DNA of 46,222 nucleotides from Tidjanibacter sp. (GTDB lineage: Bacteria; Bacteroidota; Bacteroidia; Bacteroidales; Rikenellaceae): the NCBI GenBank assembly GCA_017390585.1, contig JAFPBB010000028.1, positions 1-46,222 on the forward strand, in the 5' to 3' direction. The notes beneath the pieces are model-generated. The model worked only from the letters and a program-made list of their open reading frames with translations. It searched no databases and was not told the DNA's origin. A program made the position numbers and the translations under genes. Shown in pieces: positions 1,829-40,531 of the stretch. Within the stretch, counting starts at the first letter, position 1. The number at the start of each line of letters is the position of its first letter.

Positions 1829-2257
1829 ATGTCGAAGATAATGGAGCACGAGGCTCGCGTCGTTGAGGTGTTCGAGACGGAGAGGCGTGTTGAAGTGGAG
1901 ATGATTGTCAATAGTGCTTGCGGCAATTGCAAGGCTAAGGCTGTGTGTGGCGGTGGCGAAAGCTCCACGCGCAGGGTGTCGGCCTATACCGACCATCCCC
2001 AAATCTATAAGGAGGGAGATGTGGTGACCATCTCTATTGAGCAGATTATGGGCTATAAGGCCATTGTTTTGTCCTATATTGTTCCCTTGGTTGTGATGTT
2101 GGCGGTGTTGGCACTGACCCACGGCCGCTATGGCGATATGGTGGCAGGCCTTGCTGCTTTGGGTGCTTGTGCGCTCTATTTCATTGTGCTCTCATTCTTC
2201 CGCAAGCGACTCGAGAGAGTGATCGTGTTCAGCGTGAAGAAGTGGGATTTCCGTTAG
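1829..2257 (+). CDS. rseC: SoxR-reducing system / RseC family membrane protein
   Basis: A 142-aa protein of the RseC/MucC family. It has a cytoplasmic N-terminal part with a CGNC...C cysteine cluster (CGNCKAKAVC near residues 31-40, a possible metal or redox site) and two transmembrane helices at about 74-93 and 97-117. RseC-type proteins accompany RNF operons in many bacteria, where they are thought to help deliver reducing power or assemble the complex; their exact role is not settled. It is the first gene of the block that continues into rnfB. An alternative start at ATG 1841 is possible. Confidence 0.85.
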   Translation: MSKIMEHEARVVEVFETERRVEVEMIVNSACGNCKAKAVCGGGESSTRRVSAYTDHPQIYKEGDVVTISIEQIMGYKAIVLSYIVPLVVMLAVLALTHGRYGDMVAGLAALGACALYFIVLSFFRKRLERVIVFSVKKWDFR

Positions 2258-2301
2258 GAGCGAATTAGTTAACTGTTAGGTTTATATTGAATATTTCTTT
2301 T

Positions 2302-3168
2302 ATGGAAAGTTTAGTGACAACTGTTTTGATTGTCGGAGGACTCGGTGCGCTCTTGGCGTTGCTGCTGTTCCTTGTGGCAAAAAAATTCTATGTCGAAGAG
2401 GATCCTCGCATCGACGAGGTGGAGAAAATGCTTCCGGGTGCCAATTGTGGTGGCTGCGGCTTTGCCGGCTGTCGTGCAATGTCGGAAGCCTTGGTTTCGA
2501 AAGATGACATCTCGGCACTCTTTTGCCCCGTGGGTGGCGATGAGTGTATGAAGAAGGTGGCCGGATATTTGGGCAAGGCGGCACCCGAGAAGGAGCCTAT
2601 GGTGGCGGTGGTAAGGTGTGCTGGTAGTTGCGACAACCGCCCAAGGAACAATAGGTTCGATGGTGCCAAGTCGTGCCTTGTGGCTTCGAGCCTTTATGCT
2701 GGCGAGACGGGTTGCCCGTTTGGTTGTATAGGCTTGGGCGATTGCGCTGTGAAGTGTGAGTTTGGTGCATTGAGCATCAACCCTGTGACCGGACTGCCCG
2801 AGGTTGACGACGAAAAGTGTACCGCTTGCGGTGCCTGCGTGAAAGCCTGTCCCAAGGGTATCATCGAACTGCGTAAAAAGGCTAAGAGGGGCCTCAAAAT
2901 ATATGTGTCGTGTGTCAATAAGGACAAGGGTGCTGTTGCCCGCAAGGCCTGCAAGGTGGCCTGCATCGGCTGTGGCAAGTGCGCCAAGGTTTGTCCTCAC
3001 GATGCCATCGTTGTGGAGAATAACCTCGCCTATATTGACTATTCCAAGTGTAAGATGTGTCGCAAATGCGTGGTGGAGTGCCCCACGGGTGCAATCGTGG
3101 AGTGTGGATTTCCCCCTCGTAAGGTTGCAGAAAATGACGCTAATTCTTCAAACAAAGTAGCAGAGTAA
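2302..3168 (+). CDS. rnfB: RNF complex subunit B (polyferredoxin)
   Basis: RnfB is the ferredoxin-like entry module of the RNF complex, which couples ferredoxin oxidation and NAD+ reduction to ion pumping. The 288-aa protein has one N-terminal membrane helix (about 5-27), the RnfB-specific Fe-S domain with CGGCGFAGC (49-57) and a fourth Cys at 75, then an extended Cys-rich part. That part has clusters at C173-C183, C221-C231 and C250-C260 (each CxxCxxCxxxCP) and further cysteines at 106, 110, 125, 138, 142, 148 and 152. The 26 cysteines allow five or more clusters, the long form typical of Bacteroidales and clostridia. ATG 2302 is preferred to an in-frame TTG at 2287. Confidence 0.95.
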   Translation: MESLVTTVLIVGGLGALLALLLFLVAKKFYVEEDPRIDEVEKMLPGANCGGCGFAGCRAMSEALVSKDDISALFCPVGGDECMKKVAGYLGKAAPEKEPMVAVVRCAGSCDNRPRNNRFDGAKSCLVASSLYAGETGCPFGCIGLGDCAVKCEFGALSINPVTGLPEVDDEKCTACGACVKACPKGIIELRKKAKRGLKIYVSCVNKDKGAVARKACKVACIGCGKCAKVCPHDAIVVENNLAYIDYSKCKMCRKCVVECPTGAIVECGFPPRKVAENDANSSNKVAE

Positions 3169-3171
3169 AGT

Positions 3172-4509
3172 ATGAAAACATTTCCCATTGGCGGAATCCA
3201 TCCGTCGGATTGCAAAGAGTATAGCAAGAGTGCTGCAATAGAGACTTTCCCTACTCCTGCTACGGTGACCATCCCTTTGTCGCAACACATTGGTGCCCCC
3301 GCTGTGGCTTGTGTGGCCAAAGGAGATAGGGTGTTGGTGGGTCAGGTGATTGCCAATGCCGGTGGTTTTGTCTCCAGCCCCATCCACTCCTCCGTTTCGG
3401 GTACGGTGGTGGCTGTTGAGCCCAAGGCCGATGCACAGGGTAACAAGAAACCCTCGGTGACCATTGCTGTTGAGGGTGATGAGTGGGTTGACACCATCGT
3501 TAGAGGCGGCGCACTGAAGAAGAATATCAACCTTTCGAAGGAGGAAATTGTGTCCAAAATCTCCCAGATGGGTATCGTGGGTATGGGTGGTGCCACCTTC
3601 CCCACTCACGTTAAACTCTCTATTCCCGCAGGTAAGAAGGCCGAGTGCTTGATTATCAATGCTGTGGAGTGTGAGCCTTATCTCACTGCAGACTATAGGG
3701 TGATGTTGGAGCAGGGCGAGAAACTCATTGTGGGCGCTCGCATCTTGGCCAAGGCAATCGGTGTGGATAAAATATATATAGGTATTGAGAATAATAAGCC
3801 CGATGCGATTAGCCACTTGCAGCAGCTTGCCTCTGCGTATGTGGAGGTTGAGATTATTCCCCTGAAGATGCGCTATCCCCAGGGAGGAGAAAAACAACTG
3901 ATTGCGGCAGTTACGGGTCGTGAGGTTCCCAGCGGTGGCCTTCCTATTGATGTGGGTGCCGTTGTGCAGAATGTTGGTACGGCATTAGCTGTCTATGAGG
4001 CGGTTATGCTGAATAAACCTCTCTTTGAGAGGGTAGTGACAGTCACAGGATCGCAACTCGCATCGCCCAAAAACCTCCTTGTCCGCATTGGTACACCTAT
4101 GAGTGCACTTATTGACTACTGCGGCGGAATGGAAGGTGTGGGTAAGGTAATCGCAGGTGGCCCTATGATGGGACGCGCGGTGAGCAATGTCGATGCACCG
4201 GTGACCAAGGGTACTTCGGGTGTGTTGTTGATGCCCACCGAGGAGTCGCTCCGCAATGTGGAGGGTAGCTGCATCCGTTGTGCAAAGTGCGTGGAGGCTT
4301 GCCCTATGGGCTTGGAGCCCTATCTGCTCAATAGACTGACCCAACTTGGTGATTTTGAGCAGCTCGAGCACCACTATATCGCCGATTGTATCGAGTGTGG
4401 CTGCTGCACATTCTCCTGTCCCTCCTATCTCCCCCTGCTCGATTGGGTGAGGATTGGTAAGGCCGAGGTTATGAAACGCATCCGCGAGAGGGCTGCTGCC
4501 AAGAAATAG
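3172..4509 (+). CDS. rnfC: RNF complex subunit C (NADH-side Fe-S flavoprotein subunit)
   Basis: RnfC is the peripheral subunit that reacts with NAD(H) and passes electrons to and from RnfB. The 445-aa protein has an N-terminal barrel-sandwich segment, a central NAD/FMN-binding Rossmann-like domain with a Gly-rich MGIVGMGGATFPTH stretch at 133-146, and two C-terminal [4Fe-4S] motifs (C367/C370/C373/C377 and C406/C409/C412/C416). The length is standard for short RnfC lacking the long C-terminal repeats of gamma-proteobacteria. The ATG lies 3 bp after the rnfB stop, so translation is probably coupled. Confidence 0.95.
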   Translation: MKTFPIGGIHPSDCKEYSKSAAIETFPTPATVTIPLSQHIGAPAVACVAKGDRVLVGQVIANAGGFVSSPIHSSVSGTVVAVEPKADAQGNKKPSVTIAVEGDEWVDTIVRGGALKKNINLSKEEIVSKISQMGIVGMGGATFPTHVKLSIPAGKKAECLIINAVECEPYLTADYRVMLEQGEKLIVGARILAKAIGVDKIYIGIENNKPDAISHLQQLASAYVEVEIIPLKMRYPQGGEKQLIAAVTGREVPSGGLPIDVGAVVQNVGTALAVYEAVMLNKPLFERVVTVTGSQLASPKNLLVRIGTPMSALIDYCGGMEGVGKVIAGGPMMGRAVSNVDAPVTKGTSGVLLMPTEESLRNVEGSCIRCAKCVEACPMGLEPYLLNRLTQLGDFEQLEHHYIADCIECGCCTFSCPSYLPLLDWVRIGKAEVMKRIRERAAAKK

Positions 4510-4539: not shown

Positions 4540-5520
4540 ATGGATAGTCAAAAATTGGTGATTTCGCCTGCGCCACACGTTCACGGCAGCAACGACACGC
4601 GTCGTATGATGGGCGATGTGCTTATTGCACTCTTGCCGGCATTGCTTGTCTCGGTTTTGGCCTATGGACTCCAGGCTCTGGTTGTTACGGCTTTTTCGGT
4701 GGCTTGTTGCGTGCTGGTGGAGTGGTTTATTCAGAAGTTTATGCTCAAGGGGGCTTCGACCATCGGAGACCTCTCTGCTATGGTCACAGGCGTGCTTCTC
4801 GCCTTCAACCTGCCCGCCAACATCCACTTGGGATTGGTGGCAATCGGTGCTGTTGTGGCAATCGGAATTGGTAAGATGACCTTTGGTGGCTTGGGTAAAA
4901 ACCCCTTCAACCCCGCTCTGGTTGCGCGTGTATTTATGTTGGTTGCCTTCCCTGTGGCTATGACCACTTTCCCAGAGGCTGCCGGTGCTGTTACGGGAGC
5001 AACTCCTCTGGCTATGGCGAAGGAGGCTCTGAAGGCAGGAGTGCCCGTGGGTGAGGTTATGGAGAGCGTGGACTTGGTTGCGATGAGTCTGGGTATGAAG
5101 AGCGGCTCTATGGGTGAAATATCTGTTGTGGCTCTGCTTATCGGCTTTGTGTGGTTGCTCTGTAGGAGAGTGATCTCGTGGCACATTCCCGTGTGCGTAC
5201 TCGGCACAATGGCCCTGATCTCTTCGGTGGCTTGGCTTGCTTCGCCCGAGGAGTTTATGAGTCCCATCTTCCACCTTTGCAGTGGTGGTGCAGTGTTGGG
5301 TGCTGTCTATATGGCAACCGACTATGTATCCTCGCCAATGACAAAGAAGGGTATGGTAATCTACGCAGTAGGTATCGGTGTGATTACTATGCTCATAAGG
5401 ATATGGGGTGCCTACCCCGAGGGTATGTCCTTCGCAATTCTGATTATGAATTCCGTGGTGCCTCTCATTGATAAGTATGTGCGTCCCAGACGTTTTGGTG
5501 CTGTGAGGAATGGTAAATAG
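4540..5520 (+). CDS. rnfD: RNF complex subunit D (membrane flavoprotein)
   Basis: RnfD is an integral membrane subunit homologous to NqrB. The 326-aa protein is strongly hydrophobic with about ten predicted helices and the GKNPFNPALVAR motif at 119-130. The TGATP motif places the expected covalent FMN on Thr155. It sits in the order rnfB-C-D-G-E-A, with 30 bp after rnfC. The FMN is normally attached by ApbE, which is not in this window. Confidence 0.95.
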   Translation: MDSQKLVISPAPHVHGSNDTRRMMGDVLIALLPALLVSVLAYGLQALVVTAFSVACCVLVEWFIQKFMLKGASTIGDLSAMVTGVLLAFNLPANIHLGLVAIGAVVAIGIGKMTFGGLGKNPFNPALVARVFMLVAFPVAMTTFPEAAGAVTGATPLAMAKEALKAGVPVGEVMESVDLVAMSLGMKSGSMGEISVVALLIGFVWLLCRRVISWHIPVCVLGTMALISSVAWLASPEEFMSPIFHLCSGGAVLGAVYMATDYVSSPMTKKGMVIYAVGIGVITMLIRIWGAYPEGMSFAILIMNSVVPLIDKYVRPRRFGAVRNGK

Positions 5521-5535: not shown

Positions 5536-6516
5536 ATGAAAAGTTCATTGAGAAATATGGTTTTGATGCTCTTTGTCATCGCATTTGTCTGCTCGGCAGC
5601 GGTGGCAGGAGTATTCCAAATGACTAAAGAACCCATCGAGAAAGCACAGGCACAGAAGGTGGTGGATGCACTACGCAAGGTGTTGCCTGAGTTTGATGAG
5701 ACCTCGGAGAAGAAGAGTGTTGCTGAGTGCGGCGTCTATGAGGCTGTGTTGGGTGGCGAGATCGTTGGCTATGCTGTGGAGTCTGTGTCGCATAACGGAT
5801 TCAGTGGCGATGTTAAGATTATTGTAGGCTTCACTACCGATGGCACTATCTATAACATTGAGGTGCTCGAGCAGGCAGAGACACCTGGTCTGGGCGCTAA
5901 TATGGTGAGCGAGGATAACGTGTTGGTGGGTAGCTTCGTCGGCAAGAGGGCCGAGGAGATGAATATGACCGTCCGCAAGGATGGTGGCGATGTAGATGCG
6001 CTCACTGCTGCAACTATCTCGTCGAGAGCCTTTTCGGAGGCTGTGGCTTTTGCCTATGCTGCATACTTGGAGTGTGCGGCAGAGAATGGTCAGGGAGGCG
6101 TTGACCCCTCGAGACTTCTTCCCGAAAGTGACCAGATTGAGGAGATGGAGTTGGATGGCGTGGCTGCCTATAAAGCGTTGCTCGGCAATGAGGTTGTGGG
6201 CTATGCTGTGGAGGGGCGCTCCAATAGCGGGTTTAATGGCCTTGTTCGCGTGATGGTCGGTTTTGGCGTGGATGGCACCATTGTGGATGTAGCCGTGCTC
6301 GAGCAGAATGAGACCCCTGGCCTTGGCACCAAGATGTGCGATGAGGGTAATGCCCTTGTGGAGAGCCTCAAAGGTAAGAGTGCCTCGGGCGTGAAGTTCG
6401 CTCTCAAGGTGGAGGGTGGAGATGTCGATGCACTCACGGCAGCTACGGTATCGTCTCGAGCTTATGTGGAGGCTGTGGAATCTGCCTATGAGACATTTAA
6501 GAAGATTAACCTATAG
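5536..6516 (+). CDS. rnfG: RNF complex subunit G with two tandem FMN-binding domains
   Basis: RnfG carries covalent FMN on the outer face of the membrane and relays electrons within RNF. This copy has 326 aa against about 190-230 for a usual RnfG. After one membrane helix (8-26) there are two FMN-binding domains, at about 68-180 and 212-323. They share most of their residues, including GDVDALTAAT at both ends, with ApbE-type acceptor threonines expected at Thr160 and Thr304. Both copies keep the ETPGLG signature (115-120 and 259-264). An AGGAGG Shine-Dalgarno at 5521-5526 supports the ATG. The frame is continuous, so this looks like a true internal duplication rather than an assembly artefact. 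Confidence 0.93.
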   Translation: MKSSLRNMVLMLFVIAFVCSAAVAGVFQMTKEPIEKAQAQKVVDALRKVLPEFDETSEKKSVAECGVYEAVLGGEIVGYAVESVSHNGFSGDVKIIVGFTTDGTIYNIEVLEQAETPGLGANMVSEDNVLVGSFVGKRAEEMNMTVRKDGGDVDALTAATISSRAFSEAVAFAYAAYLECAAENGQGGVDPSRLLPESDQIEEMELDGVAAYKALLGNEVVGYAVEGRSNSGFNGLVRVMVGFGVDGTIVDVAVLEQNETPGLGTKMCDEGNALVESLKGKSASGVKFALKVEGGDVDALTAATVSSRAYVEAVESAYETFKKINL

Positions 6517-6535: not shown

Positions 6536-7126
6536 ATGGGTAAGAATTTGAAAATATTTACCGACGGTCTGCTGAAAAACAACCCCACCTTCGTGCTGGT
6601 GCTGGGTATGTGTCCCACGTTGGCTACAACCACTTCGGCTTTCAATGGTATGGGTATGGGTGTGGCGACCTTGTTTGTGTTGGTGATGTCCAATGTTGTG
6701 ATTTCGCTGCTCAAGAATGTCATTCCCGATAAAGTGCGCATCCCTGCCTATATTGTGGTGATTTCGTCGTTTGTGACTGTTGTTCAGTTGCTTATGCAGG
6801 CCTATGTGCAGGATTTGTATAACACTCTCGGCGTGTTCATTCCTCTGATTGTGGTGAACTGTATCATCCTTGGCCGTGCCGAGGCCTTTGCGTCCAAAAA
6901 TGGAATCTGGGCCTCTGCGCTCGACGGACTCGGCATTGGTTTGGGCTTCACTTTGTCGCTCACTGTCGTAGGTATGGTGCGCGAGTTGCTTGGCAATGGT
7001 CAGCTCTTCGGACTTGATATCTGGCAGGGTGGGGGAGCCTTGATTTTCATCCTCTCGCCCGGTGCATTCTTTGTGCTCGGCTACCTTATGATTGTATTCC
7101 GCAAATTAACCGCTAAAAAGAACTAA
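6536..7126 (+). CDS. rnfE: RNF complex subunit E (membrane)
   Basis: RnfE is one of the paired six-helix membrane subunits, homologous to NqrD, that with RnfA form the ion path and hold a membrane-embedded Fe centre. The 196-aa protein has the half-motif GMCPTLATT near residue 23 and NCIILGRAEAFAS near 105-117, each supplying a conserved Cys. Its length and hydropathy are standard. It lies 19 bp after rnfG and 6 bp before rnfA. Confidence 0.95.
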   Translation: MGKNLKIFTDGLLKNNPTFVLVLGMCPTLATTTSAFNGMGMGVATLFVLVMSNVVISLLKNVIPDKVRIPAYIVVISSFVTVVQLLMQAYVQDLYNTLGVFIPLIVVNCIILGRAEAFASKNGIWASALDGLGIGLGFTLSLTVVGMVRELLGNGQLFGLDIWQGGGALIFILSPGAFFVLGYLMIVFRKLTAKKN

Positions 7127-7132
7127 TCGGCT

Positions 7133-7705
7133 ATGGAACTATTTGCAATTATCATCGCATCGATTTTTGCGAACAACGTAGTTTTTTCGCAATCGCTTGG
7201 TATATGTCCCTTCCTCGGTGTCTCCAATAAGGTGGGTACCGCTGCCGGTATGGGCGCAGCCGTAACTTTCGTTATGGCCATTTCCTCTCTGGTGGTGTGG
7301 ATGCTTCAGTCGTTTATTCTCGCTCCTCATGGTCTCGAGTATATGCAGACTCTGGTGTTCATCCTCGTCATTGCTGCCCTCGTGCAGATGGTCGAGATCG
7401 TGCTCAAGAAGATTTCTCCCTCTCTCTATCAGGCACTTGGCATCTTCTTGCCTCTGATTACCACCAACTGTGCAGTGCTGGGTGTGGCTTTACTCTTGGT
7501 GCAGAAGGAGTATAATCTCTTGGAGTCGGTCATCTATGCAACCTCCACCGCCTTGGGCTTTGCTCTGGCACTTGTGATTATGGCAGGCATCAGGGAGAGA
7601 TTTGAGATCGTTAGTGTCCCCAAAGGTGTTAAGGGTGTGCCCATCGCGCTTATCACTGCCGGCATCTTGGCAATGGCATTTATGGGCTTCTCCGGCTTGG
7701 TGTAG
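7133..7705 (+). CDS. rnfA: RNF complex subunit A (membrane)
   Basis: RnfA is the 190-aa six-helix partner of RnfE, homologous to NqrE, with inverted topology relative to it. The conserved Cys motifs are GICPFLGVS near 23-31 and NCAVLGVALL near 110-119. It closes the RNF operon and is followed within 30 bp by a strong hairpin terminator. Together with rnfB, C, D, G and E the complex is complete. Confidence 0.95.
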   Translation: MELFAIIIASIFANNVVFSQSLGICPFLGVSNKVGTAAGMGAAVTFVMAISSLVVWMLQSFILAPHGLEYMQTLVFILVIAALVQMVEIVLKKISPSLYQALGIFLPLITTNCAVLGVALLLVQKEYNLLESVIYATSTALGFALALVIMAGIRERFEIVSVPKGVKGVPIALITAGILAMAFMGFSGLV

Positions 7706-39790: not shown

Positions 39791-39795
39791 CTGAT

Positions 39796-39800
39796 GGAGG
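39796..39800 (+). promoter_or_regulatory. Shine-Dalgarno sequence deciding the nqrC start
   Basis: GGAGG lies 8 bp before ATG 39809 and overlaps an earlier ATG at 39794. The downstream ATG is therefore the likely start. Clear Shine-Dalgarno sites are rare in this window; others are at 5521-5526 (rnfG) and 41160-41165 (nqrE). Confidence 0.55.
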
Positions 39801-39808
39801 ATAGAAAT

Positions 39809-40531
39809 ATGAGCAAAAAACAATTCTTAGGCGGCAAAAATAGTAGCGCCTACATCGTATTCTACTCGACAGTAATGGTTGTCATCGTGGCCGTAATGCT
39901 GGCATTCACCTCGCTCTCGCTCAAGGAGAAACAGAATGCTAACATCTTGGATGAGAAGAAGAACGCTATCGTGGCTTCGCTCGGTCTGGAGAAAGGTTCC
40001 TACGATGCCAATATTGAGGCTTATGTTGTCAATAACGAGGGTGTGAAAATCGAGACTACCAACACTCCTCTCGATATGCTCTTCGACTTGGCTGCAAGCT
40101 ATGCGGCTGGTGAGTATCCCGTATTTGAGGATAAGAACACCGGCGCACTGGTATTCCCCGTGACCGGTAAGGGTCTTTGGGATGACATCTGGGGCTACAT
40201 TGCACTCGAGAACGACCTTAATACTATTAAAGGTGTAGTTTTCGACCACGCAGGTGAGACTCCTGGTCTGGGTGCAGAGATTGCAACTCCCAAATATCAG
40301 GCGCAGTTTCCCGGCCAGACTATCTATGAGGGCGACCAGCTCGTTGGTATCTATGTTGTGAAAGGTGGCGCACAGGGCGCAGCCCACTCCGTTGATGCCG
40401 TTACCGGCGGTACAAAAACCTCCGAGGGCCTTCAGAATATGATTATCGACTGCCTCGGCTGCTACGATAATTACATTAAGGCTGCAAAGGCTGCAAAAGA
40501 GGAAGTAGTATTAACTGAAAATGCAGAGTAG
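39809..40531 (+). CDS. nqrC: Na+-NQR subunit C (FMN-binding)
   Basis: NqrC anchors covalent FMN on the periplasmic side, as RnfG does. The 240-aa protein has one membrane helix (about 14-35) and a single FMN-binding domain with [10 protein letters not shown] (149-158) and the DAVTGGT acceptor motif at 196-202 (Thr202). This is one domain, in contrast to the two in the RnfG of the same window. The start is chosen from the GGAGG site. Confidence 0.95.

Follow-up and report, generated by a model that had tools for sequence, protein, structure and literature searches.

The closest described relatives of the protein reported here are the multi-flavinylated RnfGs, which carry more than one FMN_bind domain, are found in RNF clusters, and for which a second electron path to other acceptors has been proposed (Meheust et al. 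2021, PMC8238504). RNF is an energy pump of anaerobic gut Bacteroidales and is reported to be required in the gut (PMC12718326). Its RnfG subunit has been proposed to swing between the RnfA/E cluster and RnfD (PMC12174285). We analyzed a stretch of 46,222 nucleotides (the window) from Tidjanibacter sp., of the family Rikenellaceae and the order Bacteroidales (assembly GCA_017390585.1, contig JAFPBB010000028.1), in which the rnfG gene encodes two FMN_bind domains in tandem. Like the canonical RnfGs (7zc6_G, 9eri_G and 8rb9_G), which consist of a membrane helix and one FMN_bind domain, the window protein aligns to this layout over residues 1-187 of its model; unlike them, it is longer by about 140 residues, which amount to a whole second domain. 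The features of the gene are the following (FMN, flavin mononucleotide; AF2, AlphaFold2; pLDDT, predicted local distance difference test):

5536..6516, + strand: rnfG, an intact open reading frame (ORF) of 326 amino acids with an N-terminal membrane helix, FMN_bind domain 1, a linker and FMN_bind domain 2
5797..6057, + strand: FMN_bind domain 1 (PF04205, 70.2 bits)
6013..6015, + strand: codon of Thr160, candidate FMN attachment site of domain 1 (DALTAAT), invariant in alignments and assigned by homology
6085..6135, + strand: linker between the domains, residues 184-200, from the AF2 model (pLDDT below 50 at 185-187)
6229..6489, + strand: FMN_bind domain 2 (PF04205, 65.4 bits), with model residues 221-321 aligning to domain 2 of SaFMN3
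6445..6447, + strand: codon of Thr304, candidate FMN attachment site of domain 2 (DALTAAT), assigned by its motif

The window protein is the RnfG of the rnf operon. The ORF at 5536-6516 matched the TIGR01947 rnfG profile with 231.8 bits (curated cut-off, 102), and the N-terminal membrane helix, linker helix and FMN_bind domain that make up the RnfG layout were all present. Pfam recognized two FMN_bind (PF04205) stretches, with 126.2 bits for the whole protein. The two domains were identical at 62 of 116 aligned residues (62/110 by BLASTP, E 6e-42), each half contained ETPGLG and GGDVDALTAAT, and DALTAAT, found at residues 154-160 and 298-304, constitutes an ApbE-type motif in each domain. An earlier note on this DNA had described two FMN domains sharing about half their residues, both with ETPGLG and GDVDALTAAT and each with a candidate FMN-bearing threonine, and the analysis bore out this description, the attachment sites Thr160 and Thr304 remaining predictions. 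Domain 2 lacks a membrane helix, and it matches the RnfG profile only from about 32 positions in, beyond most of the linker helix. Judged by its domains and motifs, the window RnfG can be placed among the multi-flavinylated RnfGs, a class already published.

The second domains of relatives appear to be maintained. Their ratio of nonsynonymous to synonymous substitution rates (dN/dS) was about 0.09-0.19 in the four pairs with a usable ratio, which indicates purifying selection; the pair formed by the window and genome G009 had no usable dS. The second FMN-binding domain proposed earlier is supported, and it retains the ApbE-type motif. Domain 2 was less conserved than domain 1 in four of five pairs. 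In each of the 16 second domains of the order readable as far as the motif, its last residue was Thr or Ser, and this end was kept even in second domains with a decayed ETPGLG loop, a loop that is lost from domain 2 in the Alistipes-genus copies. Where the ApbE consensus has glycine, the RnfGs read across the order mostly have alanine in their folded first domain ([ST]A[AS]T). Unlike first domains, the RnfG tails described below and many second domains have GA[ST] or GSS at the motif.

Many single-domain RnfGs of the Bacteroidales end in a tail that contains one to five copies of D-x-x-[S/T]-G-A-[S/T], described as the minimal ApbE motif, seven residues long and most effective at a terminus (PMC12052999). 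In an even draw of genomes across the order, 41 of 122 single-domain RnfGs had tails of at least 18 residues. The strict motif was present in 15 of these long tails and a relaxed form, D..[ST][GSA]A[ST], in 21, while the relaxed form was found in none of the 81 shorter tails of the draw. Two further families had the strict motif in 16/30 and 24/30 loci, which are the best 30 of 47 and the best 30 of 38 genomes matching a motif-bearing query and may lean toward the motif. These families were taken to be Bacteroidaceae and Tannerellaceae because a member RnfG of each is 78% and 82% identical to the RnfGs of Bacteroides finegoldii and Parabacteroides distasonis, respectively. Named species with a motif-bearing tail include P. 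distasonis (WP_008771710.1), B. finegoldii (WP_007752522.1) and Phocaeicola massiliensis. The tail of Rikenella microfusus DSM 15922 RnfG has two related sites, neither of them strict, and its residues 196-265 were without helix or strand in a single modest model (mean pLDDT 69.7; 42-64 per ten-residue block). In the two further families, three RnfG tails (L328, L362 and L374) carry three strict copies each.

We think it probable that domain 2, located at the free C-terminal end of RnfG, is a second FMN domain with covalently bound flavin and that it would act as an extra electron exit. This reading is based on the two FMN_bind domains, the ApbE-type motif in both, the purifying selection seen in relatives, the operon context and the ApbE gene, one of which was found in the host genome (G000:C62:27322-28152). 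ApbE would load FMN onto Thr160 and Thr304. Electrons would pass from the RnfA/E cluster to the FMN of domain 1, and from there they would take either the normal route to RnfD or a route through the FMN of domain 2 to some periplasmic acceptor. The motifs in the tails of single-domain RnfGs would then be a smaller route to the same end, a flavin beyond the canonical one. Several observations weigh against this interpretation. The consensus glycine of the ApbE motif is replaced by alanine in both motifs of the window RnfG, a change that halved flavinylation in the protein in which it is reported to have been tested (PMC12052999). A helix of 24 residues, calculated to be about 36 Å long, lies between the flavins and would hinder transfer if neither the linker nor the tail folds back. 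No electron-acceptor gene was seen beside the rnf operon within the window, the search not extending to other genome regions or to the flanks of relatives. As for the tails, 20 of the 41 long ones lack even the relaxed motif, and some have Gln, Asn or Glu instead of the motif Asp; in one protein that was tested, changing this Asp to Ala is reported to have made little difference (PMC12052999). The motif is also patchy on the RnfG tree, where it required 17 changes compared with a shuffled mean of 19.7 (17 of 500 shuffles were as low).

The alternative that survives best, although we regard it as unlikely, is that domain 2 works within the normal RNF circuit from RnfA/E to RnfD, as a serial relay or as another moving shuttle, with no exit of electrons. 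If RnfG swings as proposed (PMC12174285), a second flavin nearby could raise the rate, and the lack of a visible acceptor gene beside the operon agrees with such a role. It is harder to reconcile with a domain 2 that has no membrane helix and matches the profile only past its start, or with the other lineages that alter or lose the ETPGLG loop of domain 2 yet keep the attachment motif, and linear tails of widely varying length would make an odd relay. Somewhat less likely still is that the redox activity of domain 2 goes unused and that the domain serves for structure or binding, or to store flavin. The lower conservation of domain 2 and the loss of its ETPGLG loop in the Alistipes-genus proteins are in line with this idea, but every second domain read retains the attachment motif, and relatives that have no second domain at all repeatedly show linear flavinylation motifs.

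We consider it quite improbable that the tail motifs are chance words in low-complexity sequence and thus uninformative about a second flavin. A, S, T and G abound in many of the tails, and the patchiness on the tree and the long tails devoid of the relaxed motif would fit this explanation. However, when the tails were shuffled 2000 times, the strict motif was found in a mean of 0.08 tails (maximum 2) compared with the 15 observed, and the relaxed motif in a mean of 0.30 (maximum 4). The spacing of the Asp residue is exact: among 54 [ST]GA[ST] sites in 71 non-redundant tails of at least 18 residues, Asp was located exactly three positions before the site in 42 and one position to either side of that in none, against a background of 7%. 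These tails came from 249 single-domain rows, many of which were one gene fetched twice, after excluding 26 tandem rows. Up to five strict copies were present in one RnfG, and the copies within a tail mostly differ in synonymous codons, though some of those in the tail of L026 are nearly identical. In a control set of 772 genes read in the window and 80 named loci, RnfD accounted for 53 occurrences of the strict motif, NqrB for one and RnfG for 10; the strict motif was absent from the other 514 genes (192,723 residues), in which the relaxed motif occurred three times. RnfD and NqrB are described as bearing covalent FMN in known complexes (PMC12174285). None of 30 NqrC proteins of relatives, 18 of them with tails of 15 residues or more, had the tail motif. 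One RnfD (L109, residues about 149-164) contains the flavinylation motif twice in tandem (DSLTGATGMDASSGAT). The possibility that the tail motif is a remnant of a lost second domain was set aside, as the residues that follow it do not resemble ISSRAY by eye.

Some tails are of other kinds. Cysteine-rich tails were found in L013-L016 (G010, G014, G013 and G018), L166 (G193) and L315 (Phocaeicola massiliensis). Those of Tidjanibacter are of the CGGCTKEEAKECGxGPHGxCGxNCKHK type, and in the Phocaeicola tail many cysteines follow a DGASGAT motif. They may form a metal or Fe-S site, and no CxxCH haem motif was seen by eye. Many RnfGs of the order end in KGG or EGG followed by a few residues, a stretch that may reflect translation of the ribosome-binding site of rnfE.

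The relaxed motif was not found in the last 25 residues of any of the 16 tandem RnfGs of the order read to their end. The tandem domain and the motif-bearing tail thus seem to exclude each other, which suggests that one demand, an extra C-terminal flavin on RnfG, may be met in two ways. The earlier note had called tandem domains in RnfG at least unusual. This holds across the order, where they are rare: in the even draw, RnfG scored above the cut-off in 124 of 149 genomes and only two were tandem, the window's own and one from another family. It holds less well within the genus, in which 22 of 23 genomes, including the window's own, had RnfG and seven of the 22 were tandem (one cut by a contig end and one without a start); among the rest, six had a motif-bearing tail, four a Cys-rich tail and five neither. 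In the family, 248 of 268 genomes had a match, and at least 16 RnfGs among the matches listed were tandem, with the two-domain layout checked: seven from this genus, six from g4, one from g6 and two from g39, which was taken to be the genus Alistipes. All 16 tandem relatives tested had rnfD, rnfE or both next to rnfG. A Subdoligranulum record also has a tandem RnfG. In two metagenome-assembled genomes (MAGs; G005:C16/C20 and G019:C95/C76), the tandem rnfG is interrupted by contig breaks, perhaps due to the repeat. That the tandem arises from an assembly or sequencing duplication, as could be feared from the fragmented source MAG (84 contigs), was refuted: the halves are only 61% identical in DNA (214/348 nucleotides), which implies an old duplication and not an assembly that collapsed or repeated sequence, and separately assembled members of the genus have this layout too, at 57-72% protein identity.

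More than one duplication likely lies behind the tandem RnfGs, although this is not proven. In trees of first, second and single domains, the starred branches force at least two (one tree) or at least three (the other trees) changes between first and second labels, each of which is possibly a gain or a loss. The first and second domains of two Alistipes-genus proteins group together (100/96). A single group of all 16 second domains of the family was not formally rejected by the approximately unbiased (AU) test (p-AU 0.0512). It was rejected when the long or truncated rows were left out (12 rows, p 0.0197), and so was one group of the Tidjanibacter and Alistipes-genus second domains (8 rows, p 0.0098), both subsets having been picked after the first tree was seen.

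The operon has the order rnfBCDGEA, with an RseC-like gene, rnfB, rnfC and rnfD upstream of rnfG and with rnfE and rnfA downstream. The remaining features considered in the window are:

1829..2257, + strand: RseC/MucC-like gene, upstream of rnfB, identified by a domain match
2287..3168, + strand: rnfB, with Fe-S domains, named from its domains and operon position; the start codon is uncertain
3172..4509, + strand: rnfC, with RnfC_N and Complex1_51K
4540..5520, + strand: rnfD, with NQR2_RnfD_RnfE and its own flavinylation-type site, TGATPL
6536..7126, + strand: rnfE (Rnf-Nqr), assigned as E and not A by gene order
7133..7705, + strand: rnfA (Rnf-Nqr), assigned as A and not E by gene order
39794..40531, + strand: nqrC, for comparison, with a single FMN_bind domain

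NqrC had been described as keeping one domain, and it gave one FMN_bind match. A ZIP transporter is encoded on the opposite strand downstream of the rnf operon. The host genome is a fragmented MAG, 84.68% complete, with three FMN_bind matches in total. Its close relatives are MAGs labelled Tidjanibacter or Rikenellaceae, with ruminant guts indicated as the source of many. Three PLSDB 'plasmid' records (NZ_OY725751.1, NZ_OY725914.1 and OY725990.1) carry rnf genes and may be pieces of chromosomes.

Taken together, the duplicated domain and the tails of relatives point to a possible extra electron exit from RNF. We propose that, in Bacteroidales, the C-terminus of RnfG has repeatedly gained what would be a second covalently bound FMN. 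More tentatively, and with slightly less than even confidence, we suggest that the RNF of many Bacteroidales, among them Bacteroides, Phocaeicola and Parabacteroides of the human gut, carries one to several extra covalent FMNs at the C-terminus of RnfG, by way of natural linear 'flavin tags' or a duplicated FMN domain, which would make RNF a branch point to the periplasm. If RnfG has extra flavins, RNF may have an electron exit that is absent from the solved RNF structures that we found, and if the tail motif is real, counting FMN_bind domains overlooks true flavinylation sites. Since rnf deletion mutants, their complementation and an RNF-selective growth medium are reported for Bacteroides thetaiotaomicron (PMC12718326), the question can be addressed in a genetically tractable species.

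Several known systems share parts of these arrangements. SaFMN3 and CbFMN4 (PMC10339131; 8p2a and 8p2b) have repeated FMN_bind domains, as the window RnfG does, and in their case the domains are loaded by ApbE; 8p2a aligned to residues 221-321 of the window model and 8p2b to residues 78-176. Unlike the window protein, they are not RNF subunits and come from Streptomyces azureus and a Clostridiaceae bacterium. The Flavin-tag (PMC12052999), as described, offers ApbE a short linear target, D-x-x-[S/T]-G-A-[S/T], at the end of a protein or close to it, as in the RnfG tails, although it is engineered. Nearest to the tails are the ApbE-associated FMN_red proteins, in which motifs are reported on an unstructured C-terminal extension (PMC11334425). 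The FMN_red tail sites are close to a conserved flavin-binding site in a model, whereas for the RnfG tails, which hold as many as five strict copies, no pocket is known. Linear-motif tails in RnfG are the part of this work not found in print: no paper on them was found in the open-licence section of PubMed Central, from which many journals are missing and with supplements outside the scope. The main text of PMC8238504 contains no word beginning with 'bacteroid', no 'unstructured' and no 'linear motif', and its supplements may list such proteins. The window RnfG resembles the class described there in that it has multiple FMN_bind domains and is encoded within an RNF gene cluster, and it differs from that class, as far as the main text goes, in its occurrence in Rikenellaceae, in the signs of several duplications, and in the linear-motif tails that appear to be an alternative to the second domain.
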